Positions 3,536-59,610 of a DNA stretch of 64,000 nucleotides are shown piece after piece; the first letter of the stretch is position 1, and the number at the start of each line of letters is the position of its first letter. The stretch comes from Roseobacter insulae. GTDB lineage: Bacteria > Pseudomonadota > Alphaproteobacteria > Rhodobacterales > Rhodobacteraceae. Under the pieces are notes generated by a model that did not search any database, was not told the DNA's origin, and saw nothing but the letters and a program-made list of their open reading frames with translations. The stretch covers positions 248,001 to 312,000 of the forward strand of contig NZ_JAHXDN010000006.1 of NCBI RefSeq assembly GCF_019375555.1. The letters run 5' to 3'. The translations under genes were made by a program, and so were the position numbers.

Positions 3536-4320
3536 CCGCGGGCGGCCTGCAGGCTGCGCGTCAGGGCGAATATCGCGGCGGCGACGCTGACGATGGTGGG
3601 GCCGGTTGGCGTATCGAGGGCGAATGAGACCAGCAGGCCGCCAAGTGCCGCGGCCGCGCCGATCGCCATGGCGGCGGCGGCCATCGTCTCCGGCCCGCGC
3701 GACAGCGGGCGGGCGGCGGCCGCAGGGATGATCAGCAGGGCGGCGATCAGCAGGGCGCCCACGACCTTGATCGCCACGGCAACGGTGATTGCCAGCGCAA
3801 GGGTCAGGATGAACTGCTCCCGCTGCGGGTCGACGCCGGCCGCCCGCGCCATGTCGGGGCTGAGGGTCGCGGACAACAGCGCGGACCACCGCCATGACAG
3901 CAGCATCAGAACCGCCAGCGCGCCCGTCCAGATGACGACCAGATCGGTGCCGGACACCGCGAGAATATCGCCCACGAGATAGCTCAAGAGGTCCACGCGG
4001 ACACTGGGCAGGAAGGAGACGGCCACAAGCCCCAGCGCCAGCGCGGTATGCGCCAGAACACCCAGCGCTGCATCTCCGCCCATGCCGCGCCCGGTCAGCG
4101 CCGTCAGCAGCAGCGCCATGACCAGCGCGATCACTAGCACGCCGCCGAAGACCGGCAGGTCGAGCGCCAGCGCGAGCGCAACGCCGAGGATGGCCGCATG
4201 CGAGGTGGCATCGCCGAAATAGGCCATGCGCCGCCAGACGACAAAACATCCCAGCGGGGCTGCCGCGATCGCCACGCCAAGCCCGGCAAGCGCCGCGCGC
4301 ACCAGGAAATCATCCAGCAT
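3532..4320 (-). CDS. znuB: Zinc ABC transporter permease ZnuB
   Basis: Inner-membrane permease of the ZnuABC high-affinity zinc importer, 262 residues of the ABC-3 family with roughly eight hydrophobic segments. Recognisable pieces are WRRMAYFGDATSHAAILG near the N-terminus and KVVGALLIAALLIIPAAAAR, the family's central motif. It is the third gene of zur-znuC-znuB. Its ATG overlaps the znuC stop in a TAATG junction, so translation is probably coupled. The gene should be Zur-repressed from the operator near 5579. Manganese or iron transport is possible in this family, but the Zur neighbour and His-rich ZnuA favour zinc. Confidence 0.93.
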   Translation of the reverse strand: MLDDFLVRAALAGLGVAIAAAPLGCFVVWRRMAYFGDATSHAAILGVALALALDLPVFGGVLVIALVMALLLTALTGRGMGGDAALGVLAHTALALGLVAVSFLPSVRVDLLSYLVGDILAVSGTDLVVIWTGALAVLMLLSWRWSALLSATLSPDMARAAGVDPQREQFILTLALAITVAVAIKVVGALLIAALLIIPAAAARPLSRGPETMAAAAMAIGAAAALGGLLVSFALDTPTGPTIVSVAAAIFALTRSLQAARG

Positions 4321-6831: not shown

Positions 6832-8034
6832 TCAATTCAGGCGCGCAATCAGGTCCGGGATGGCCTTCCTGAAACCAAAAAATCCCGTCGTCGCATGTGG
6901 CCAGGCGGCCTGATCGTATGGCCTGCGTAACGGCCGTAGCAGTGGCGCGTCGGGGTGCGTGGCCAACCTGTCCATGAATGCGGCGACGGGACCGACAGGC
7001 GGTTCCGTCATGACGATCTGCCCCAGCCTTTCCCGCGCCGCCCAGGACAGGATGTCGTCAAGGCTCCGCGCCTCGGTGACGGTATCGACCCGGTGCTGGT
7101 ATCGGGCGACGGAATCCCGGGTTGCTGCGGTGCGAAAATCCCCGACGTGGGGGGCGGGCAGCAGCGGGCTGATCCCGTTTTCCACAGCGACGTGGCACAG
7201 GCTGACCGGTGCTGCCTGATCGAACACGTAGCCCGGGCTCAAATCATCGTGGTGCAGCAGCAGCCCGGTTTTCAGCCCCCTGTCGACAGGGGGCAATGCG
7301 CGCAGAGCTTGGGGCGGCGGCACGGGCTGGCCGCTGCGCGGGGCGGCGGTCTGTGCCAGCTGGCCCCTGGGTCTGAACCGTCCGTTCGTGTATTTGGCGA
7401 TATTGTCGGCGCGGGCCTGATAGGTCTTGCCAACCGTCTGAAGACCGGCCACCCAGCGCCAGCTCAGCGTGTTGCAGGCCGGGTCGCCATCCAGCAGGTG
7501 CCGCAGGAAGAAATCCGCGCCCAGCTGCCATGGCAGCTCCAGCGTGAACACCCAGATCGACGCGAACCACATCCGCGCATGGTTGTGAAGATATCCCATG
7601 GAAACAAGCTCTTGCGCCCAGTTATTAAAGCACTCGATATCGGTGTTTCCAAGGCAGGCGCAGGTCCATCGGTCGCGCAGACCGGTTTGCGACTGCACCG
7701 CGTCCCAGGCCTGGCGCAGGTCGTGCTGATAGGCCTCCCACACGGTCGGGCGGCGTTCCAGCCAGCCTTTCCAATAGGTGCGCCAGAACACCTCCTGAAT
7801 GAATTTCTCTGCCGATTTTTCGGAATGCCGCCCCAGAACCGCGGTGAGGATTTCCGCCTCGGTGATCAGGCGGCAGCGCACGTAGGGCGACAGGGTGGAG
7901 ACATCGCCATGCTGGCCCGGGCCGTGATCGTAATTGCGCCGCGCCGCATAGGCACGGCCCGCTTTCGGCACGAATGCCGACAGCCGTTCAAGCGCTGCGG
8001 TTCTGGTGGGCGGGAAGAGGTCCAATGCCGTCAT
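6832..8034 (-). CDS. Photolyase/cryptochrome-family protein with N-terminal FAD domain and C-terminal alpha/beta domain
   Basis: A 400-residue relative of DNA photolyases and cryptochromes. Residues about 60-235 match the family's FAD-binding helical domain: EVFWRTYWKGWLE, NHARMWFASIWV (151-162), then LLDGDPACNTLSWRWVAG (181-197). The canonical N-terminal antenna alpha/beta domain is missing. Instead residues about 250-400 form an alpha/beta-looking segment starting with the strand TGLLLHHDDL, followed by a second strand PVSLCHVAV. The order is therefore FAD domain first, alpha/beta domain second. Such a protein could repair DNA or sense light, and I cannot say which. The gene is single, minus strand, between the znuA terminator and clpP. 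Confidence 0.75.
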   Translation of the reverse strand: MTALDLFPPTRTAALERLSAFVPKAGRAYAARRNYDHGPGQHGDVSTLSPYVRCRLITEAEILTAVLGRHSEKSAEKFIQEVFWRTYWKGWLERRPTVWEAYQHDLRQAWDAVQSQTGLRDRWTCACLGNTDIECFNNWAQELVSMGYLHNHARMWFASIWVFTLELPWQLGADFFLRHLLDGDPACNTLSWRWVAGLQTVGKTYQARADNIAKYTNGRFRPRGQLAQTAAPRSGQPVPPPQALRALPPVDRGLKTGLLLHHDDLSPGYVFDQAAPVSLCHVAVENGISPLLPAPHVGDFRTAATRDSVARYQHRVDTVTEARSLDDILSWAARERLGQIVMTEPPVGPVAAFMDRLATHPDAPLLRPLRRPYDQAAWPHATTGFFGFRKAIPDLIARLN

Positions 8035-27270: not shown

Positions 27271-28449
27271 ATGTCAGTTTTGCAGCGCAAGGCGCAGGCA
27301 GGTAAACAGGAACATCAGGCGCGGGCTATGACCGTGCCCAAAGCTTTGCGCGTGGGTGTCGCCAAAATCGCCGACCAGCTGTTTGACATGGCCCTTGTGG
27401 TCATCGGGATCACGCAAGAACGCTGCGAAGGCGATACGATTGCTGAAAAACTGGACGAGTCGGCATTGCTTGTGCTTCTGGACGGGCCGACGGAGTGTTC
27501 TGGCGGCGCGATGATCGGTCCGGAACTGGTGGGCGCGATGATCCAGCAGCAGACCACCGGCAAAGTGTCCAAGGAGCCGGCGACCGAGCGGCCCCTCACG
27601 TCAACCGATGCAGCGCTCTGCGCGCCCTTGCTTGATGCGCTTTTTCAACGGGCGCATGATATGCTCGAAACGGAGAAGGACCGTGACATGTTCCCGGTCT
27701 TCAAATTCGGGGCGCGCGTTGAAAACACCCGGCTTTTCGGCCTGGCCCTGGAAGCGACGGAATATCAGGTTTTCAAGCTGACCATTGATGTCTCGGGAGG
27801 GGCTTTCCAGTCCAGCCTGACCCTGTTGTTGCCGGTGATTGAAAAACGCGCTGATCTCATGGTGCCGGACCGGCCGGATGAGGCGCCCGCTCCGGTGACG
27901 CTCGAAAAAACCGTGATGAGCATTCAGGCTGACCTGACCGCGGTCCTGGGGCGCGTCAAGCTGCCGCTGTCGAAGCTGGGCCAGATGTCCGCGGGAGACG
28001 TGCTGACCCTGCGCCCTGATGCGTTTGACGCGGTGGAGGTGATCACACGGCAAGGCCGGGTGGTCAGTCGTGGCTCAATGGGGCAGGTGGATGGGCAGCG
28101 CGCTGTCCAGTTACAGTCAAACCCCGCAACGCCGCAAAACCCAAAGCGACGGGCCGCGGATCGCGATGGCCTTGATTTGCCGGAGGTTGCCCCGGTTGAA
28201 TCGTCGCTGTCCCCCAGAATGTCCGCCGACCCCCTGAACACCATCGATATGCCAACCGATATGCCGACGGATTTGGACGCTGCCGGCGAATTGCCCGATC
28301 TGCCCGATCTGCCGGACCTTCCGGACCTTGACGAGGCAGCCACGTTGCCGGACCTGCCCGATCTACCGGAGTTGCCCGATTTGCCGGACCTGGACAACGA
28401 TGGTGACCTGCCGCCTCTTGACGGGCTGCCGGACATTAAAATTGCCTGA
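27271..28449 (+). CDS. Orphan FliM/FliN-like protein with SpoA domain and LPD-repeat tail
   Basis: A 392-residue protein. Residues about 65-190 resemble the FliM middle domain (LLDGPTECSGGAMIGPELVGA, RPLTSTDAALCAPLLDALF). Residues about 209-282 are a SpoA/FliN-type C-terminal domain (VTLEKTVMSIQADLTAVLGRV, LPLSKLGQMSAGDVLTLRPD). The CheY-binding N-terminal motif of FliM is not evident. The end (341-389) is an acidic tract of LPD repeats. No flagellar gene lies within 64 kb of window, so it is an orphan. It could be a flagellar motor switch variant or a remnant adapted to another secretion apparatus. ATG 27271 is the only good start. Confidence 0.72.
   Translation: MSVLQRKAQAGKQEHQARAMTVPKALRVGVAKIADQLFDMALVVIGITQERCEGDTIAEKLDESALLVLLDGPTECSGGAMIGPELVGAMIQQQTTGKVSKEPATERPLTSTDAALCAPLLDALFQRAHDMLETEKDRDMFPVFKFGARVENTRLFGLALEATEYQVFKLTIDVSGGAFQSSLTLLLPVIEKRADLMVPDRPDEAPAPVTLEKTVMSIQADLTAVLGRVKLPLSKLGQMSAGDVLTLRPDAFDAVEVITRQGRVVSRGSMGQVDGQRAVQLQSNPATPQNPKRRAADRDGLDLPEVAPVESSLSPRMSADPLNTIDMPTDMPTDLDAAGELPDLPDLPDLPDLDEAATLPDLPDLPELPDLPDLDNDGDLPPLDGLPDIKIA
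28291..28434 (+). repeat. LPD codon repeat tract in the FliM/FliN-like gene
   Basis: In-frame nine-base repeats encoding Leu-Pro-Asp (LPD/LPE), interrupted by short acidic spacers (LDEAAT, LDNDGD). At least nine LPD or LPE units are visible. Codon use varies between units (ctg/ttg, ccc/ccg), so the tract looks old rather than freshly expanded. Confidence 0.85.
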
Positions 28450-51084: not shown

Positions 51085-51534
51085 TCATGCCGCCTGTTGC
51101 TGCATGACTTTCGCGAAGTTCGCGAAAAACTTCGCCGCCAGCTTCTTGGCCGTGCCCTGGATCAGCCGATTGCCCAGCTGCGCCAGTTTGCCGCCGATCT
51201 GTGCCTTTGCATCATACCGCAGAACAGTCTGATCCCCGAGTGTTTCAAGGGTGACATCGGCACCGCCCTTGGCATGTCCCGCCGCCCCGCCGTTGCCCTG
51301 ACCGGTCAGTGAAAACCGGGTGGGGGCGCCGGATTTATCCAGCGCGACCTCGCCTGAAAACCTTGCCTTCACCGGGCCGACCTTGAGCACGACCTTGGCC
51401 TCAAGCTGGGTGTCAGATGTCTGGACAAGTTCCTCGCAGCCGGGAATGCATTGCCTTAAGATCTCTGGATCGTTCAGCGCCGCATAGACATCTTCCATCG
51501 GCGCGTTGATGGTGATTTCATCGCTCAGTTCCAT
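51085..51534 (-). CDS. coxG: CoxG/SRPBCC-family protein
   Basis: A 149-residue CO dehydrogenase subunit G-type protein (SRPBCC fold). It opens with MELSDEITINAPMEDVYAAL and DPEILRQCIPGCEEL, the family hallmarks, with LEAKVVLKVGPVKARFSGEV following and a basic/amphipathic C-terminal helix. In Afipia (Oligotropha), CoxG recruits CO dehydrogenase to the membrane. More recent work shows CoxG binding a quinone for electron transfer, as I recall. Start ATG 51534 follows AAAGGAACCGTC. It is the last gene of the minus-strand cox cluster, 131 bases after coxF. Confidence 0.88.
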   Translation of the reverse strand: MELSDEITINAPMEDVYAALNDPEILRQCIPGCEELVQTSDTQLEAKVVLKVGPVKARFSGEVALDKSGAPTRFSLTGQGNGGAAGHAKGGADVTLETLGDQTVLRYDAKAQIGGKLAQLGNRLIQGTAKKLAAKFFANFAKVMQQQAA

Positions 51535-51665
51535 GACGGTTCCTTTGTTAACTGTATGGGGTTTTATTCCGGCGGGACGTGCGTCCGGATCGCCATTCAT
51601 CCGCCTGCGGGGGGTGTGGCAGTGCTGCACAACCCAAGTCTGCAGCGCGCCGGGCAACGGTGGCA

Positions 51666-52466
51666 TCACGCATCGGCGACGGCCCCGTGTCGCGCATGGC
51701 GTCTGACCTGCGTGAGTTCAGCGATGATGGAAAGCGCAATTTCCTCGGGCGTGACCGCGCCAATGTCGATGCCGGCGGGGGCACGGACGGCATTGATGCG
51801 GTTTTGCGAAATCCCTGATTGCCGGAGTTTTTCTGCCAGGGCGGCATATTTCTTTCGACTGCCGACGAAGGCTACATAATCGACCTCTGTGGCAAGCGCC
51901 TTTTCAAGTGCTGTGCGGTCGCCCTGGCCCTGGGTCGCGATCACGATCGCCCGCCTGCGGCCCGGCGCGGTCTGGGCAAAGCTGTCACCCGGCGCCAGAA
52001 CGGTCACCTCCCAGTCAAACCGGGGGGCAAGCTCGGCAAGCTCCGTGGCAACGGGCGATGCGCCGATGATCACCACCTCGGGGCGGGGCAGGCTGGGGTC
52101 GATAAATACGTCCACGGAGCCTTTCGACGGGCACCCGTTGCGGGCGAAATACACGCCCTCGACCTCGTCACCCGCCACCAGTCCCTTGTCCGAAAGAATG
52201 TCTTCCGGCGCGACCGAAACAAGCTGTGGTTTGCCCTGGGCTATGGCAACAAGGGCGGCTTTTTGCACCGCGGCCCGCGTGCAGCCGCCACCAAGCCAGC
52301 CGTGCAGTATCGTGCCGTCGGACCGGAGCAGCGCCTTGGCGCCGGGCTTGGCCGCTGTCGCCCCGGCCGTGCGGACAATGGTTGCCACGGCGAAGGGCTC
52401 GTCACGCAGCCGCAGCGCCTCCAGCGCGTCGGTCATCTGCGGGTCCAGCAACTCTTTGGGCATCAT
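51666..52466 (-). CDS. coxF: XdhC/CoxF-type molybdenum enzyme maturation factor
   Basis: A 266-residue XdhC/CoxF family protein. N-terminal VATIVRTAGATAAKPGAKAL and GWLGGGCTRAAVQ form the XdhC signature. The C-terminal Rossmann part has VVIIGASPVATELAEL and VDYVAFVGSRKKYAAL. XdhC proteins bind the molybdenum cofactor and guide its sulfuration and insertion into xanthine dehydrogenase-type enzymes, here CoxL. Its start overlaps the coxE stop by four bases. CoxF and CoxI of CO oxidisers are both of this type, so the letter assignment is by gene order. Confidence 0.85.
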   Translation of the reverse strand: MMPKELLDPQMTDALEALRLRDEPFAVATIVRTAGATAAKPGAKALLRSDGTILHGWLGGGCTRAAVQKAALVAIAQGKPQLVSVAPEDILSDKGLVAGDEVEGVYFARNGCPSKGSVDVFIDPSLPRPEVVIIGASPVATELAELAPRFDWEVTVLAPGDSFAQTAPGRRRAIVIATQGQGDRTALEKALATEVDYVAFVGSRKKYAALAEKLRQSGISQNRINAVRAPAGIDIGAVTPEEIALSIIAELTQVRRHARHGAVADA

Positions 52467-53644
52467 AGGCGCACCAGCTCCGGTTCCAGCCCGGCCAGCT
52501 CCTCCAGCGTGTTCGCCGCTTTGAACAGGTCAATGTAGGGCAGGGCGGCGGCCATTCCCTGTGCGGTCGCCTCATAATCCCGCCACCCTTTCAGCGGGTT
52601 GAGCCAGATCACCTTGCAGCCGCGTTTCCGAAGACGGCTCAGCGCCGCCGACATCGCGGCGGGCGGGTCGGTATCGAATCCGTCCGACAAGATCAGGACC
52701 ACGGTGCGCCCGTCGACGAATCTCTTGGCATGGGTGTCGGCGAAACGGCCGATGCTGTGGCTGATCTTGGATCCCCCGGCAAAACCATCGGCCATGAGCG
52801 ACATGCGCGCCAGTGCCCGCAGCGCATCCCGGTCGCGCAGGGCGTGGGTAATTCGCACAAGACGCGTGTGGAAGAGATAAGCATCCGCCGTCTGATCAGC
52901 ACGCATCAGCCCGGCCAGAAACGCCAGGAAGACCTGCGCGTAGACCGACATCGATCCCGAGACATCGCAGATCGCGGCAATCTTGCGCAGACGGTCCGGG
53001 CGGTGTTTTTTCGGCAGGTCAAACGGTTGGCCGCCGGTGGCAAGGCTTTGCCGGATCACGCGCCGGAAATGCAGCCTGTCGCCCTTGCGCGCGGCCTTGC
53101 GTCGCCGCGACCTGCGATCCCGCAACGCCGCGCCAAGGCGCAGCGCCACCCGCTCTGCTGCCAGTATATCCTCGGGTCGCACCAGATCGCGCAGGTCCTT
53201 TTTCATCAGGTTTGTGACCTCGGTCGCCATAAGCTTGCCCAGACCATCGCCTTCCGACGCGCCGCTGCCGCCATCCGGCGCGGTGGCCTCCCCGGCGCCG
53301 GTTGCCGGCGCGCCTTGCGCCACACGGGACGAGTGGACGTGATCCTTGGCCGTTTCGCCCTTGCTGGGAACAATCTTCTGTTTGACCCGCCCGCCGTTCA
53401 GCCAGAAACTGTCGAACAGGTCGTCAAAGCGGTCCGCGTCTTCCCTGCATCCGGTGCAAACCGCCCGCAGCGCCCGTTTGCTCTGCACCGGCACGGCGGC
53501 ATCGACCTGTGTCAGGGCGGTCAGGGCAAGCTCTGTCTCCGCCACGCCAAGGCGCAGCCCATTTTCGCGCAGATGCGCCAGAAAGCCGCTGACACGCGCG
53601 GCGGGGCCGGGGTCTCGTGCCGCAAATCTGGTCACGCGGCTCAT
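52463..53644 (-). CDS. coxE: CoxE-type VWA-domain protein
   Basis: A 393-residue VWA protein. The N-terminal half resembles the CoxE region (GFLAHLRENGLRLGVAETELAL). The C-terminal VWA domain has a MIDAS site, ICDVSGSMSVYAQ (DxSxS), and ends LPYIDLFKAANTLEELAGLEPEL, a CoxE signature. With the MoxR-type CoxD it is needed to assemble the Cu-Mo active site of CO dehydrogenase in Afipia. It overlaps both neighbours (coxD and coxF) by four bases, so the maturation genes are translationally coupled. All motifs are intact. Confidence 0.88.
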   Translation of the reverse strand: MSRVTRFAARDPGPAARVSGFLAHLRENGLRLGVAETELALTALTQVDAAVPVQSKRALRAVCTGCREDADRFDDLFDSFWLNGGRVKQKIVPSKGETAKDHVHSSRVAQGAPATGAGEATAPDGGSGASEGDGLGKLMATEVTNLMKKDLRDLVRPEDILAAERVALRLGAALRDRRSRRRKAARKGDRLHFRRVIRQSLATGGQPFDLPKKHRPDRLRKIAAICDVSGSMSVYAQVFLAFLAGLMRADQTADAYLFHTRLVRITHALRDRDALRALARMSLMADGFAGGSKISHSIGRFADTHAKRFVDGRTVVLILSDGFDTDPPAAMSAALSRLRKRGCKVIWLNPLKGWRDYEATAQGMAAALPYIDLFKAANTLEELAGLEPELVRL

Positions 53645-54516
53645 GCGGCGCGCCCGGCGATGCGCTGCGCCACTTCCGTCGTGATACTGGCCTGATCGCT
53701 CTGGGTTTTGAGCAGGGTGGTCAGCGTCGCTTGCAGCACCGCAGGATCATCGGTCAGATCGGCCACGCCCAGACCCATGAGGGCGGCCGCGAAATCCAGT
53801 GTCTCGGCGATGCCGGGGGCTTTCTCAAGCTCTTCTTTGCGCAGTTTCTGAACAAAACCAATGATCTGGCCTGCAAGCTTCATTTCGATCTCGGGGCAAC
53901 GCGCTGATAGGATCGCCAGTTCCGTGGCGCGGTCAGGGTAGTCCACGTAGGTGTAAAGGCAGCGTCGTCGCAATGCATCGGACAGATCACGTGTCCCATT
54001 GGCCGTCAGCACCACGATGGGCCGGGTCACGGCGCGGATCGTGCCCAGCTCGGGGATCGTGATCTGGTAATCCGCAAGGATCTCCAGCAGGTAGGCTTCG
54101 AATTCCTCGTCTGCCCGGTCAATTTCGTCGATCAAAAGGACAGGCGGTTTGTCCTGCCTGATGGCGGCGAGCAGCGGCCGCTCCAACAGGAAGTCTTCGG
54201 AAAAGATGCGCGCTTCGACGCTGGCGCCGGTTTCACCATCTTCCGCCGCCGCGCGGATCGACAACAACTGGCGCTGGTAGTTCCATTCATAGATTGCCTG
54301 TGCCGCATCCAGACCTTCGTAGCATTGCAGCCGCAGCAGTCGGGTGTCCTGAACCGCGGCCAGAACGCGCGCCACTTCGGTCTTGCCCACGCCCGCCGCG
54401 CCTTCCAGCAGGATGGGGCGCCCCAGCGACAGCGCAAGGTGCAGCGCCACCGACAGATCGTCGGAAGCGACATACCCATGCCCCGCCATTGCGTCTTGAA
54501 GATCGTTCCAGGCCAT
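53641..54516 (-). CDS. coxD: CoxD-type MoxR AAA+ ATPase
   Basis: A 291-residue MoxR-family AAA+ ATPase. It has Walker A EGAAGVGKTE, Walker B VLLIDEIDRADEEFEAYLLEIL, sensor-1 VLTANGTRDLSDALRRRCLY and the Arg finger in this stretch. CoxD is required for introduction of sulfur and copper at the CO dehydrogenase active site, working with CoxE. ATG 54516 (MAWNDLQDAM) is chosen. The upstream in-frame codons have no similarity. Four-base overlap with coxE. The MoxR sequence LLRLQCYEGLDAAQAIYEWNY (kept in two pieces) is characteristic of this subfamily. Confidence 0.9.
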   Translation of the reverse strand: MAWNDLQDAMAGHGYVASDDLSVALHLALSLGRPILLEGAAGVGKTEVARVLAAVQDTRLLRLQCYEGLDAAQAIYEWNYQRQLLSIRAAAEDGETGASVEARIFSEDFLLERPLLAAIRQDKPPVLLIDEIDRADEEFEAYLLEILADYQITIPELGTIRAVTRPIVVLTANGTRDLSDALRRRCLYTYVDYPDRATELAILSARCPEIEMKLAGQIIGFVQKLRKEELEKAPGIAETLDFAAALMGLGVADLTDDPAVLQATLTTLLKTQSDQASITTEVAQRIAGRAA

Positions 54517-54567
54517 TATCCGTCTCTTTGCCGTGCGGGCAGGTGCCATGACCCGCCCGGGGTCACT

Positions 54568-56985
54568 TTAGTCGTGCAGGCCCAGATCATTGGCGATCTG
54601 CCAGATGCGCCAGTGATCGTGCGGCATATGCGCTTGGCGCAGCCCAAAGGCCCGGAAGGCATCATGCACCGCATTGGAGAACGCCGGAACCCCGCCCACG
54701 TTAGGGCTCTCGCCCACACCCTTGGCCCCGATCGGATGGTGCGGCGAGGGCGTTTCGGTGTGATCGGTGACATAATTCGGCGTTTCCCACGCGGTGGGGA
54801 TGAAGAAATCCATCAACGTGCCGGTTTTGCAATTGCCCAGATCGTCATAGGCGATCTCCTGTCCCATCGCGATGGCCAGGGCTTCGGTCAGGCCGCCGTG
54901 TACCTGCCCCTCGATCACCATCGGGTTGATCCGCGTGCCGCAGTCATCCAGCGCGTAGAACTGGCGGATGTCCGTGGTGCCGGTGTCCACGTCCACGTCC
55001 ATCACGCAGACATAGGCCCCGAAGGGGTAGGTCATGTTCGGCGGGTCATAATAGCTGACCGCTTCCAGCCCCGGCTCGATCCCCGGAATGGCCTGATTAT
55101 AGGCGGCATAGGCGATCTCTTTCATCGTCTTGAACCGCTCCGGCGCACCCTTAAGGACAAAACGGTCCACATCGAACTCCACGTCATCGTCGTGCACTTC
55201 GAGCAGGTAGGCCGCAATCATCTGTGCCTTGGCGCGGATTTTCCGGCCTGCGAGCGCCGTGGCCGCCCCCGCCACCGGGGTGGAGCGCGACCCGTAGGTG
55301 CCCAGCCCGTAGGGCGCGGTGTCGGTATCGCCCTCCTCGATGGTGATCGAATCCGCCGGGATACCGGTTTCCGTCGCCAGAATCTGCGCGAAAGTCGTCG
55401 CGTGGCCTTGCCCCTGGCTGATGGTGCCAAGCCGCGCGATTGCCGATCCGGTGGGGTGGATCCTGATCTCGCAGCTGTCGAACATGCCCATGCCGAGGAT
55501 GTCGCAATTCTTGACGGGGCCCGCGCCCACGATCTCGGTGAAGAAGCTCAGCCCGATGCCCATCAGCTTGCGCGTCTCGCCCCGCTTGAAGGCTTCGACA
55601 CGTTCCGCCTGTTCACGGCGCAGATCGTCATAACCAACGGAGGTCAGCGCCTTGTCCCATGCGGTGTGGTAATCGCCGGAATCGTATTCCCATCCCAAGG
55701 CGGACTGATAGGGAAACTGCTCTTTTCTGATGAAATTGATCCGGCGCAGCTCGGCGGCATCCATGTTCAGCTCCATCGCCAGCACTTCGATCATGCGTTC
55801 AATGAAATAGGCAGCCTCGGTCACCCGAAAGGAACAGCGATAGGCAACGCCGCCCGGCGCCTTGTTGGTATAGACCCCATCGACCCCGACGTAAGCCACC
55901 GGAATGTCATAAGACCCGGTGCAGATGTGAAAGAAGCCCGCGGGGTACTTTGTAGGGTCCGCGCAGGCGTCAAAGGCACCGTGATCCGCCGTTACATGGC
56001 AATGCAGACCGGTGATCTTGCCTTCCTTGGTGGCGCTGATCTTGCCTTGCATCCAGTAATCGCGGGCAAAGGCCGTGGCCATCAGGTTTTCCATCCGGTC
56101 CTCGACCCATTTGACCGGCAAACCGGTCACGATGGAGGCAACGATGGAGCAGACATACCCGGGGTAGACGCCTACCTTGTTGCCAAAGCCGCCGCCGATG
56201 TCGGGGCTGACCACGCGGATGTTGTGCTCCTCGATGCCCGAGAGCAGCGAGGCGACGGTGCGCACCACGTGAGGCGCCTGAAACGTGCCGTAAAGCGTCA
56301 GCTTGCCATTCACCTTGTCCATCGAGGCCACCGCCCCGCAGGTTTCCAGCGGGCAGGGGTGGGTACGGTGATAATAGACCATCTCTTCGACAACCACCTC
56401 GGCGCTGTCGATCACCTCCTCGGTCGCCGCCTTGTCGCCTTCCTCCCAGAGGAAAATGTGGTTGTGGTGGCGGCGCGGGCCGTGCGCCCCATCCGCCCCA
56501 TCCTCAAGGTCTTCACGCAACACAGTGTCCGATTTCATCGCCTCGAAGGGATCGGTCAGAACCGGCAGTTCTTCGTAATCCACCTCCACGAGTTCCACCG
56601 CATCGGCGGCCACATAACGGTCGCGTGCAACGACAAAGGCCACTTCCTGCCCCTGGAACAGAACCTTGCCATCCGCGAGCACCATCTGCTTGTCGCCTGC
56701 GAGCGTCGGCATCCAGTGCAGCGAGAGGGGCTCCAGATCCTTGGCGGTCAGAACAGCGACCACGCCATCGAGCGCCATGGCGGCATCGATATTGATCGAT
56801 TTGACGCGCGCGTGCGCATAGGGCGAGCGCACGAAGTCGCCGTGCAGCATGCCGGGCAGTTTGATGTCATCGACGTAATTGCCCTTGCCTTGGGTGAACC
56901 GCACGTCTTCGACACGTTTGCGCGCCGATCCCAGGCCCTTGAGGTTGGCGACGCGGTCGTCGCGGCTTTCTACTTCGTCTTTCAT
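54568..56985 (-). CDS. coxL: Aerobic carbon monoxide dehydrogenase large subunit CoxL (form I)
   Basis: Molybdenum-hydroxylase subunit with the Mo-S-Cu site that oxidises CO to CO2, 805 residues. The active-site loop AYRCSFR (C384 in this numbering) is the diagnostic form I motif. Form II proteins carry AYRGAGR there. Other features are [23 protein letters not shown] at the start, [14 protein letters not shown], and the C-terminal [13 protein letters not shown] with the base-catalysis Glu of this family. ATG 56985 overlaps the coxS stop by four bases (ATGA). Flanked by coxS and coxD. CO oxidation supplies electrons rather than carbon in most roseobacters. Confidence 0.95.
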
Positions 56986-57476
56986 TCCGCGGCCTCCTGT
57001 GCGCCATTCATCTGTGCCGCAGCGGCAAGAATGGATTTCACGATGTTCTGATAGCCGGTGCAGCGGCACAGGTTACCCGCCATGCCGAACCGCACCTCTT
57101 CTTCGGTCGGATTGGGATTTTCCTCCAGCAGCTTGTGCGCCCGGGTGATCATGCCCGGTGTGCAGAATCCGCATTGCAGCCCATGGTGCTCGCGGAAGGT
57201 TTCCTGCAGTACGTGCAACGCATCCGGGCTGCCCAGCCCTTCGATTGTCGTGATCTCGGCACCATTGGCCTGACCCACGAACATCGTGCAGGATTTGACG
57301 GATTTGCCGTTCACGATCACCGTGCAGGCGCCGCAATGCGAGGTTTCGCAACCCACGTGCGGGCCGGTCAGGTTCAGCCGCTCGCGCAGGGCGTAGATCA
57401 GCAGTTCCCGAGGTTCGGCGAGGAACTCCTCATCCTGGCCGTTCACAGTCACTTTGATATGCATTTTATCTGGCAT
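56982..57476 (-). CDS. coxS: Carbon monoxide dehydrogenase small (2Fe-2S) subunit CoxS
   Basis: Iron-sulfur subunit with two [2Fe-2S] clusters, 164 residues. The N-terminal plant-ferredoxin-type set is C43, C48, C51 ([10 protein letters not shown]) and C63. The C-terminal set is C102/C105 (QCGFC) and C137/C139 (LCRC). It passes electrons from the Mo-Cu site to the FAD of CoxM. It lies between coxM and coxL, overlapping coxL by four bases. Starts with ATG 57476. All eight ligands are present. Confidence 0.95.
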
Positions 57477-57489
57477 CTTGGGTCCTCTA

Positions 57490-58344
57490 CTATGCGCGCG
57501 CCCAGGCGCTCTTGATCGCGCGGGTCAGGATCACGCCGGCCACATGGCGCTTGAACTTGACAGGGCCACGGTTGTCTTCGGTGGGATCGATATCGGCGAG
57601 CGCTGCGTCCACGGCTGCTTTGATCGCGCTGTCGTCAACGGGCGTGTCTGCCAAGGCCGCCCCTGCGGCAGGTGACCAGACCGGCACGTCGCTCAGGTTG
57701 GTCATGGCGATCGAGGCGGCGGCGCATGTGCTGCCCTCCCTGGTCAGTTGCACGGCGGCGGCAGCGGTCGCGTAATCCCCGATCTTGCGCTTTTGCTTTT
57801 CGTAGGCGGCGCCGCCCGGTTGCGCGGTGAAGGACACGCAGGTCAGAACCTCTTCATCCGTGCGCGCCGTCATGTAGGCGGCTTCATAGAAATCGCGCGC
57901 CGCGACGGTGCGTTCGCCATCCGGACCCACAAGCGTGAACTGCGCGTCCAGACACTGCATCAGCCCGGGCATGTCGTTGCCGGGATCGCCATTTGCCACA
58001 TTGCCCCCAACCGTGCCCATGTAGCGCACCTGCGGGTCTGCAATCTGCAGCGCCGCTTCCCGCAGAATGGGCGCGGCCGCCGCGAGGCCCTCGTGGTCGA
58101 TCAGATCGGCCTGCGTGGTCATCGCACCGATGCGAATTTCGCTGCCGTCAATCGTGATGCCGCCGAGCCCGGCGACATCCTGCAGGTCGATCAGATGTGG
58201 TATTTCGGCCATGCGCAGCTTCATCATCGGGATCAGGCTGTGCCCGCCCGCCATCACGCGCGCATCATCACCGTGTTCCTCCAGAAGGGCGATCACGCCC
58301 GCGATGTCCGTGGGCCGATAATAGTCGAACGGCGCTGGAATCAT
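57490..58344 (-). CDS. coxM: Carbon monoxide dehydrogenase medium (FAD) subunit CoxM
   Basis: Flavoprotein subunit, 284 residues. FAD-binding motifs are AGGHS (32-36) and TVGGN (111-115). The C-terminal domain has [22 protein letters not shown]. It takes electrons from CoxS and hands them to the respiratory chain. First structural gene of coxM-S-L-D-E-F-G. ATG 58344 follows GGAGG at an ideal spacing. Upstream, the gap to coxC carries three phased direct repeats (58424-58476), 80-132 bases before the ATG, where an activator would bind. Confidence 0.95.
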
Positions 58345-58423
58345 TGCTTGTCCTCCCTCGTGAGCAATTCGTCTGGCTGAGATAAAGGCTGCCTCGCCAG
58401 GCCGACATGCGCTTGCCTAATTC

Positions 58424-58476
58424 AACGAAAGGGGCGGAAATTTTCACGAAATGCGGCTGAGAGTGCACGAAATGCG
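58424..58476. promoter_or_regulatory. Three 21-bp-phased direct repeats upstream of coxM (candidate LytTR-type binding sites)
   Basis: Core ACGAAA occurs at 58425, 58446 and 58467, exactly 21 bases apart, that is two helical turns. The second and third copies share the longer CACGAAATGCG. The first is AACGAAAGGGG. On the coxM strand the core reads TTTCGT. LytTR proteins bind direct repeats with about this period, and a LytTR gene (coxC-like) is adjacent. I recall that RcoM, the CO-responsive LytTR regulator, also uses triplets of repeats at cox promoters. Confidence 0.75.
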
Positions 58477-58482
58477 AATGGC

Positions 58483-59610
58483 TCAGACGCCGAGCGCCTC
58501 ACGGACCGCCTTGAGGTTGGAGCGGCTCACGGGCACGGGCGGCAGGCCGGTGCCGGCAAACCGGCAAAGCCCGTTGTCCTTCAACCGTTCGAAATTCTCG
58601 ACCCGGGCGGGGTTGATCAGATAGCTGCGATGAACCTTGAGAAACCCGCGGGGGACAAGCCTTTTCGTGGCTTCGGTGATGGGCCAGACGCAGAAATGCT
58701 GGGCGTCATCGGTGTAGACATTCGTGTAATGCCCCTCGGCCCTGACAAAAGCGACCTGCGCGGGATCCACGAAAAGCGTGGTACCGTCTTTTTCACAGGG
58801 AATCCGCATTGGCAGTGGTGCAACCGGATCGGTCTGCGTCCGGGCGATGCCCTGCGACGGCGCGGCCTGTCTGCCTGTGTCGGATGGCCCGGTCGGCTGC
58901 GGCAACAGAAAGGTCACGCTCATCCACAGGAATGCGCCGAAGATCACGAAGCTGGAGAGTATGACACCCAGGGCCAACACCTCGTTGCTCATTACCGGAC
59001 CCAGCTCATTGAAGGAGGGCACCTGAACGAACCGCGTTCCGGTAATGGCCACGAAATGCACGGCAAATACGGCGATGCCAAAGCAGAGCGTGCCGAAAAG
59101 GATGTTCCTGTTGGTTCGGTGGCCATAGGCGATCCAGAAGGCGGCGATGCACAGGACGAAAGCAGAGACAACCGACAGCGCGATACCGACAGGCGTATAG
59201 ACGGCGCGACACAGTTGCAGACCGGCCATGCCGAGATAATGCATCGACAGGATCCCAAGCGCCACAAGTCCGCCCGCGAGAGTGACGGTTGTCGGGGAGC
59301 GGTCCGCAAAATGCAGGATGCTCAGGGCGGCCCCGACGATCAGGATCGCCAGCAGGGCGGATGCGAGTGTGACAGCGGAATCGTAATAGAACTGGATCGG
59401 CATCTGCATCCCGAGCATGGCCACGAAATGCATCGACCAGATGCCGCCACCAAGGGCCACCGCGGCCAGCGCAATGGCGAACTTGCGTTGCCTGATTGTT
59501 TTCTGCGAAAGGTCTTTCGTCAGCGTCAGCCCGGTAAATCCCGCAACAAGGGCGACGACAAGGGATGCAGCAATCAAACCGGCATTGTGACTAATGGCCA
59601 GATAATCCAT
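58483..59610 (-). CDS. coxC: CoxC-like MHYT-LytTR membrane sensor/regulator
   Basis: A 375-residue membrane-anchored regulator. The N-terminal MHYT sensor has seven or so membrane segments with SMHFVAMLGMQM, SMHYLGMAGLQL and VHFVAITGT repeats; these His/Met residues are proposed to bind metal and sense O2, CO or NO. After a linker, the C-terminal LytTR DNA-binding domain spans about 275-375 (FVRAEGHYTNVYTDD, FLKVHRSYLINPARVENF). This is the architecture of CoxC/CoxH in Afipia CO oxidisers. It lies immediately upstream of coxM on the same strand, and the phased repeats sit between. ATG 59610. Confidence 0.9.
   Translation of the reverse strand: MDYLAISHNAGLIAASLVVALVAGFTGLTLTKDLSQKTIRQRKFAIALAAVALGGGIWSMHFVAMLGMQMPIQFYYDSAVTLASALLAILIVGAALSILHFADRSPTTVTLAGGLVALGILSMHYLGMAGLQLCRAVYTPVGIALSVVSAFVLCIAAFWIAYGHRTNRNILFGTLCFGIAVFAVHFVAITGTRFVQVPSFNELGPVMSNEVLALGVILSSFVIFGAFLWMSVTFLLPQPTGPSDTGRQAAPSQGIARTQTDPVAPLPMRIPCEKDGTTLFVDPAQVAFVRAEGHYTNVYTDDAQHFCVWPITEATKRLVPRGFLKVHRSYLINPARVENFERLKDNGLCRFAGTGLPPVPVSRSNLKAVREALGV

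Follow-up and report, generated by a model that had tools for sequence, protein, structure and literature searches.

The window analysed here, a stretch of 64,000 nucleotides from a contig of Roseobacter insulae, carries on its minus strand a cluster of genes for aerobic CO dehydrogenase (cox), headed by a gene for an MHYT-LytTR protein (positions throughout are those of the window):

58483..59610, minus strand: coxC-like open reading frame, 375 amino acid residues, MHYT in two stretches (PF03707, E 1.4e-31) and LytTR (PF04397, E 4.5e-16)
58352..58357, minus strand: coxM ribosome-binding sequence GGGAGG, from the sequence
57490..58344, minus strand: coxM open reading frame, FAD subunit with the FAD and C-terminal domains of CO dehydrogenase (PF00941, PF03450), the gene behind the triplet described below
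56982..57476, minus strand: coxS open reading frame, named by position; matches to related families alone, below cut-offs
54568..57009, minus strand: coxL, TIGR02416 (aerobic CO dehydrogenase, NCBIfam), 1381.8 bits against a cut-off of 991.15
51085..54549, minus strand: coxD, coxE, coxF and coxG-like open reading frames; the first two with MadB/MadC-like matches below cut-off

The initial annotation had placed an MHYT-LytTR gene beside coxM of a CO dehydrogenase; the Pfam matches confirm this and identify coxM as the FAD-type subunit. In the coxC-like protein the MHYT motifs read MHFV and MHYL, with VHFV replacing the third, and the LytTR domain is C-terminal, its PF04397 match lying above the cut-off. 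At E 0.001 MHYT and LytTR were the only Pfam families matched, and a heme-binding sensor domain as in RcoM was not among the hits. We take coxL to be of form I on account of its AYRCSFR stretch; the names coxD, coxE, coxF and coxG-like are likewise our assumption, based on position, and these genes are presumably on the same transcript as coxM. The genome encodes a second LytTR protein. A search of the same genome at E 1e-15 returned no coxB relative; the putative operator stands before coxM instead.

A gap of 138 nt separates the stop codon of the MHYT-LytTR gene from the coxM start (58344). It contains ACGAAA at 58425, 58446 and 58467, a period of 21 bp, and CACGAAATGCG at 58445 and 58466, exactly as the initial annotation had it. 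Read on the strand of coxM, the repeats form three half-sites that span 78 to 131 nt upstream of the start codon:

58464..58475, minus strand: half-site 1, GCATTTCGTGCA, from the sequence, matrix score 21.4, kept in related loci
58443..58454, minus strand: half-site 2, GCATTTCGTGAA, from the sequence, 21 bp from half-site 1, matrix score 20.1
58422..58433, minus strand: half-site 3, CCCTTTCGTTGA, weaker, 21 bp from half-site 2, core 7 of 7 letters

Half-site 1 contains TTCGTGCA, which fits the RcoM1/CoxC consensus TTCNNGCA / TTNNNGCN, from which half-sites 2 (TTCGTGAA) and 3 (TTCGTTGA) deviate. When the 138-nt gap was resampled by a first-order Markov model, any 6-mer occurring three times at equal spacing (12-39) was seen in 20 of 20,000 resamples, any 10-mer pair in 166, and both together in 2. 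Elsewhere in the window, equally spaced 6-mer triples are confined to one place near 28310, where a direct repeat of 36 bp is arranged in tandem (28310-28392, unit TGCCGGACCT); it serves as background in the triple count. A generic repeat finder with a minimum length of 10 reported no direct-repeat family within the gap. Two search patterns for the strong pair each matched once in the 4.88-Mb assembly, at the coxC-coxM gap; by these patterns, which degenerate sites would escape, the genome holds no further operator.

We searched 394 genomes of the family with the CoxC protein and found a homologue in 97 of them at a threshold of E 1e-30. Among the 90 CoxC loci fetched first, 88 have coxM directly downstream on the same strand, and a half-site matrix was learned from these 88 and used with leave-one-out scoring, each locus being excluded from its own matrix. 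The conserved half-site is CGCANTTCGTGCA, repeated at 20 bp in 44 loci and at 21 bp in 44; a third copy, less well matched, follows after roughly another 21 bp. The best phased pairs score from 16.5 to 42.8 (median 36.3), against maxima in same-sized controls of 11.1 on the reverse strand, 0.0 in coxM coding sequence, 6.1 in coxC coding sequence and 4.1 after shuffling; pairs at wrong spacing (15-17) in the same gaps have a median of 1.9 and a maximum of 22.2, which is above the weakest true pair. In the remaining nine CoxC-positive genomes, added later, the pair upstream of coxM scores 28.9 to 41.5 in eight (G328, G007, G279, G296, G186, G276, G321, G344) and 10.9 in G017. A phased pair of at least 16.5 thus lies upstream of coxM in 96 of the 97 CoxC-positive genomes, the R. 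insulae genome included. The initial annotation had proposed to look for the triplet in orthologous loci and would have taken its absence there as a refutation; both the repeat and its phasing prove to be kept.

Half-sites 1 and 2 share a 10-mer (CACGAAATGC when read on the plus strand) that occurs four times in the window, where 0.41 occurrences would be expected; two of these copies lie inside coxC (59050-59059 and 59422-59431), 372 bp apart, and encode HFV of the MHYT motifs. Binding sites inside coxC were considered and rejected, as these copies are unphased and phased pairs in coxC coding sequence do not exceed 6.1; being unphased, the copies are probably a codon coincidence. Similarly rejected was an operator for self-control before coxC, the best score in the 400 nt upstream of coxC over the 88 loci being 1.5.

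A second set of loci was drawn from a scan of named genomes (80 loci), a class-wide search that includes 10 full-length relatives from outside the family, and four plasmid loci. It comprises 94 loci and overlaps the first set in part (for example, L104 is the contig of G355). Within 300 nt of coxM, a pair above 15 is present in 83 of the 87 second-set loci with a downstream coxM; the misses are three loci of Granulosicoccaceae (6.5, 12.3 and 12.5) and L197, where a pair of 17.1 lies 349 nt away. On the reverse strand, whole loci of up to about 13 kb exceed 15 in 2 of 94 cases (15.2 and 19.3). Merging both sets gave 171 rows and 157 distinct loci, over which four positions of half-site 2 are close to invariant (first G in 156, T+5 in 157, T+8 in 155 and G+9 in 156) and the majority letters spell TTCGTGCA. 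The third copy keeps at least 5 of the 7 core letters in 126 of the 157 loci; when four other ranges of spacing were taken as controls, the count was 36 to 72 of 157. Three S. meliloti strains (AK83, BL225C and AK76) also have an MHYT-LytTR gene with a triplet (29.2) behind it, at 6191-6250 in L097 and near 5190-5250 in L227 and L229; coxM, coxS and coxL matches were absent from the 4 to 5 kb of sequence covered, and the gene that follows in AK83 carries the annotation of an EAL-domain protein. In these strains the module may control a different output.

The distance between half-site 2 and the start of coxM is 100 to 114 nt in 71 of the 88 loci, and half-site 1 ranges from 18 nt inside coxC to 232 nt past its stop. 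Where coxC lies elsewhere in the genome (G328, G007, G279) or on another contig (G296), the pair still stands before coxM. CoxC loci without coxM in the sequence covered have no pair above 3 (L111, L138, L139, L182, L183, L196, L064 and L008, of which L008 is the same contig as L111 and L182 stops at a contig end). The triplet therefore belongs to coxM, from which its distance is nearly fixed, and not to coxC. As a side observation, half-site 1 falls within the last codons of coxC in 23 of the 88 loci, for example in L012-L016 and other loci with gaps of 108-115 nt, so that the putative operator and the end of the protein share the same bases.

An orthologue of CoxC has been studied experimentally. 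According to a 2024 report (PMC11347149), the MHYT-LytTR protein CoxC of Afipia carboxidovorans OM5 binds a three-direct-repeat operator at PcoxB via its LytTR domain, with a binding concentration of about 25 nM; in assays in E. coli it represses PcoxB, and CO releases CoxC in a copper-dependent manner. The CoxC of the window is about 32% identical to this protein. We scored 13,176 bp of the Afipia cox locus, sequence that had not been used to train the matrix. Two pairs exceed 4, and each lies on the coding strand; the next pair scores 3.8 and the best on the other strand 0.0. One pair lies in the coxC-coxM gap (21.1; sites 7219 and 7239, weak third copy at 7259) and constitutes a predicted, unreported site before coxM. 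The other precedes coxB (19.8; sites 4179 and 4200, weak third at 4220, hence 21 and 20 bp apart). Alone, the third copies score below zero (-5.2 and -2.5). The family matrix thus recovers the published PcoxB operator region, in another register:

Afipia PcoxB, new register: site 1, TTCATGCG; site 2, first base G4200; site 3, TTTGGGCA
Afipia PcoxB, published repeat 3: TTGCGGCA

The published repeats start at 4195, 4224 and 4250, 29 and 26 bp apart, as deduced from the mutagenic oligonucleotides (PMC11347149). In the new register, the first published mutation alters two spacer bases and also G4200, with which half-site 2 begins; the second strikes three core bases of half-site 3; and the third, assayed solely in combination with the other two, falls outside the triplet. 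The results given there (very weak, very weak and no binding; PMC11347149) are compatible with both registers. The published probe, by its forward primer, starts at the second base of new-register half-site 1. The best promoter match before Afipia coxB, TTGATG-18-TATCGT, begins 39 bp after half-site 2, so that the new register puts it where many relatives have theirs, and roughly 7 bp separate the end of the triplet from the best -35 match downstream of it. The coxM gap of Afipia likewise has TTGAAT starting at +39, though four other promoter-like pairs in this gap score as high or higher. Loci for a comparison of PcoxB itself are scarce: weak coxB relatives alone were found, in 2 of 385 genomes, and among plasmids only two Afipia records exceed 60% identity.

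The geometry of the relatives was used to place the core promoter of coxM in the window:

58385..58415, minus strand: expected coxM core promoter, -35 near 58415-58410 and -10 near 58392-58385, inferred from relatives' geometry

At this place the sigma-70 score in the window is -3.61, and a scan of 58200-58600 showed no promoter-like site. Of 156 loci, 44 have their top-scoring -35 at +39 to +40. A conserved consensus promoter was rejected as a general feature, the best sigma-70 match downstream of the triplet averaging 3.34 against 3.72 after shuffling (156 loci). In a block scan the +80 to +91 block (1.72, 1.76) is higher than the +36 to +43 block (1.16); the likely cause is that the -10 of the +80 to +91 block coincides with the region of the coxM start. 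Together with the shuffling result, this makes the fixed promoter register a positional signal and not a proof of a promoter.

The loci divide along the phylogeny of CoxC. A quick tree of the 157 CoxC proteins, in which 50 of 154 branches are weak, places the CoxC of the window in a clade of 80 with support of 100. A promoter score above 0 at the expected place is reached by 22 of the 80 loci inside this clade and by 64 of the 77 outside it, while a third-copy core of at least 6 of 7 letters is present in 62 and 25 of them, respectively; the promoter contrast rests on an E. coli matrix and related sequences, and a promoter scored as poor may still work in alphaproteobacteria. A split by spacing alone was rejected. 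Among loci with 20-bp spacing, promoter scores above 0 occur in 5 of 11 inside the clade and 62 of 72 outside it; among those with 21-bp spacing, in 17 of 69 and 2 of 5, respectively. We therefore describe the difference as a clade difference.

Based on conservation, phasing, the fixed distance to coxM, co-occurrence with CoxC (see below) and recovery of the Afipia operator, we consider it very probable that the triplet serves the membrane protein CoxC as an operator for control of the coxM promoter. Binding of LytTR to three repeats, release by CO and the need for copper are taken from the orthologue (PMC11347149), and by analogy the same binding and CO response would apply in R. insulae. The LytTR domains of CoxC molecules would occupy all three half-sites from the same side of the helix; the two strong half-sites would anchor the complex and the third would adjoin the promoter. 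CO at the copper-dependent MHYT domain in the membrane would then alter the binding of CoxC to DNA, and the control presumably extends to coxMSLDEFG. Counted against the operator reading are the low identity between the two CoxC proteins, the second LytTR protein, a partial pair in a genome lacking a CoxC hit (G109, below), the S. meliloti triplets, the Granulosicoccaceae and L197 misses, the reverse-strand scores and the wrong-spacing value of 22.2.

The initial annotation had proposed that CoxC binds the triplet and activates coxM, which would link an MHYT gas/metal sensor to a CO-dehydrogenase promoter. The link between triplet, CoxC and cox genes stands on the phased conservation, the fixed coxM distance and the binding of three repeats by the Afipia orthologue; activation is unsupported. 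In assays in E. coli that orthologue acts as a repressor from which CO gives release (PMC11347149). The main idea, including a link of an MHYT gas sensor to a cox promoter, was published in 2024, with another organism, another promoter (PcoxB) and the opposite sign. By analogy with Afipia, repression relieved by CO is the likeliest single sign, and we give it about an even chance. With a probability somewhat short of that, the same CoxC operator could work in activation, the protein, bound beside a weak promoter, recruiting RNA polymerase in the presence of CO. The weak core promoter and the strong third copy leave this possible in the window's clade, where the third core is the better kept and the promoter the poorer scored, and where the window itself has no promoter-like site; the end of the new-register Afipia triplet so close to the best -35 match points the same way, and RcoM1 is described as activating cox genes (PMC11347149). 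On the other hand, the sole tested orthologue is reported there to repress, with relief by CO, a poor score by the E. coli matrix may conceal a working alphaproteobacterial promoter, and the loci of the clade are related, so that their counts are not independent. The stronger third site and poorer core promoter of the window's clade, compared with Afipia-like loci, could mean that the sign differs, which would fit an activator in the former and a repressor in the latter.

Control by CoxC is also favored over binding of the triplet by another protein, such as the second LytTR protein or a cox regulator encoded elsewhere, with CoxC merely adjacent; we regard this as improbable. CoxC is present in 97 of the 394 genomes, a close coxM in 100, and both in 95, a near-perfect co-occurrence. 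Five genomes have coxM and no CoxC hit (G008, G083, G109, G102 and G354, with little sequence for the last two). The strict coxM loci without CoxC also lack the pair at the promoter: in G008 the best score is -1.5, and in G083 a score of 8.1 occurs some 800 nt away. G109 (L217), which yields no CoxC match at the E 1e-30 threshold, has an incomplete pair (GCGTTTCGTGCT, GCATTTGCCGAA) scoring 12.7 about 104 nt upstream of coxM, perhaps a decaying operator whose regulator has been lost. The Afipia orthologue binds the same type of repeat (PMC11347149). The second LytTR protein would speak for another binder, as would the strict pair pattern, which matches 9 of 297 CoxC-negative genomes compared with 57 of 97 CoxC-positive ones; however, the one CoxC-negative match that was inspected, in G382, falls within a coding frame in phage-like sequence and is due to chance. 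The reversed pattern, as a control, matches 46 of 394 genomes by count of the listing, against 66 of 394 for the pattern itself. The pattern was therefore rejected as a genome-wide marker: by itself it proves little, and only the place of a match is informative.

Much less probable still is that the element acts in the mRNA leader, through RNA structure or masking of the ribosome-binding site, rather than as a DNA operator. The coxM leader (58345-58392 in the window) contains a stretch AGNNAGA...GGGAGGA that is kept in many relatives, and fold prediction pairs GGGAG in 53 of 65 leaders, compared with 175 of 325 after shuffling. Against a role in the leader, 70 aligned coxM leaders gave no consensus structure (a weak test, as the shuffled control likewise gave none), and the repeats are direct, helically phased and upstream of the likely start site. 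Finally, a chance repeat, for which the resampling of the gap alone would leave some room, is refuted by the way in which 157 distinct loci keep the sequence, its phasing and its distance, and has a negligible probability.

The operator thus proposed for CoxC has counterparts among known systems. Like the CoxC-PcoxB pair of Afipia (PMC11347149), the window has an MHYT-LytTR regulator within a cox cluster and three direct repeats at a cox promoter. Unlike PcoxB, it has the triplet before coxM and not coxB, its promoter is not recognisable whereas PcoxB has a good sigma-70 match, and its half-sites are 21 bp apart, in contrast to the spacings of 29 and 26 bp deduced for the published repeats. 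The half-sites of RcoM1 from Paraburkholderia xenovorans are three direct repeats TTCNNGCA with spacers of 12-13 bp (PMC11347149), which makes a period of 20-21 bp, the period and core found here. The two systems also share the LytTR domain and the control of cox genes; RcoM1 is described in the same text as an activator that senses CO by a heme domain, whereas the protein of the window has an MHYT domain. Canonical LytTR operators, for example of AgrA, also have direct repeats two helical turns apart; unlike the triplet, they usually comprise two 9-bp repeats, with another half-site (summarised in PMC11347149). The literature that we found contains no report of an operator at a coxM promoter or of CoxC sites in Roseobacter, and a term search of two recent surveys of marine CO dehydrogenases met neither coxC nor MHYT.

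Beyond the published work (PMC11347149), the present analysis adds a better motif, a new position, a testable correction to the published operator and a clade difference. A bolder combination of these, which we think unlikely to hold as a whole, is that the Afipia operator was misread, that its unit is a 20-21-bp phased GCANTTCGTGCA, that Afipia has a second operator before coxM, and that the CoxC family has divided into a repressing branch, with a good promoter and a weak third site, and an activating one, to which the window would belong, with a poor promoter and a strong third site. A single published operator is extended to a motif over 157 distinct loci, mostly of marine CO oxidisers of the Roseobacter type, and the coxM promoter is named as the usual target of CoxC. 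It becomes testable which bases CoxC reads in the operator already studied, and whether a membrane CO sensor represses in one lineage and activates in another.
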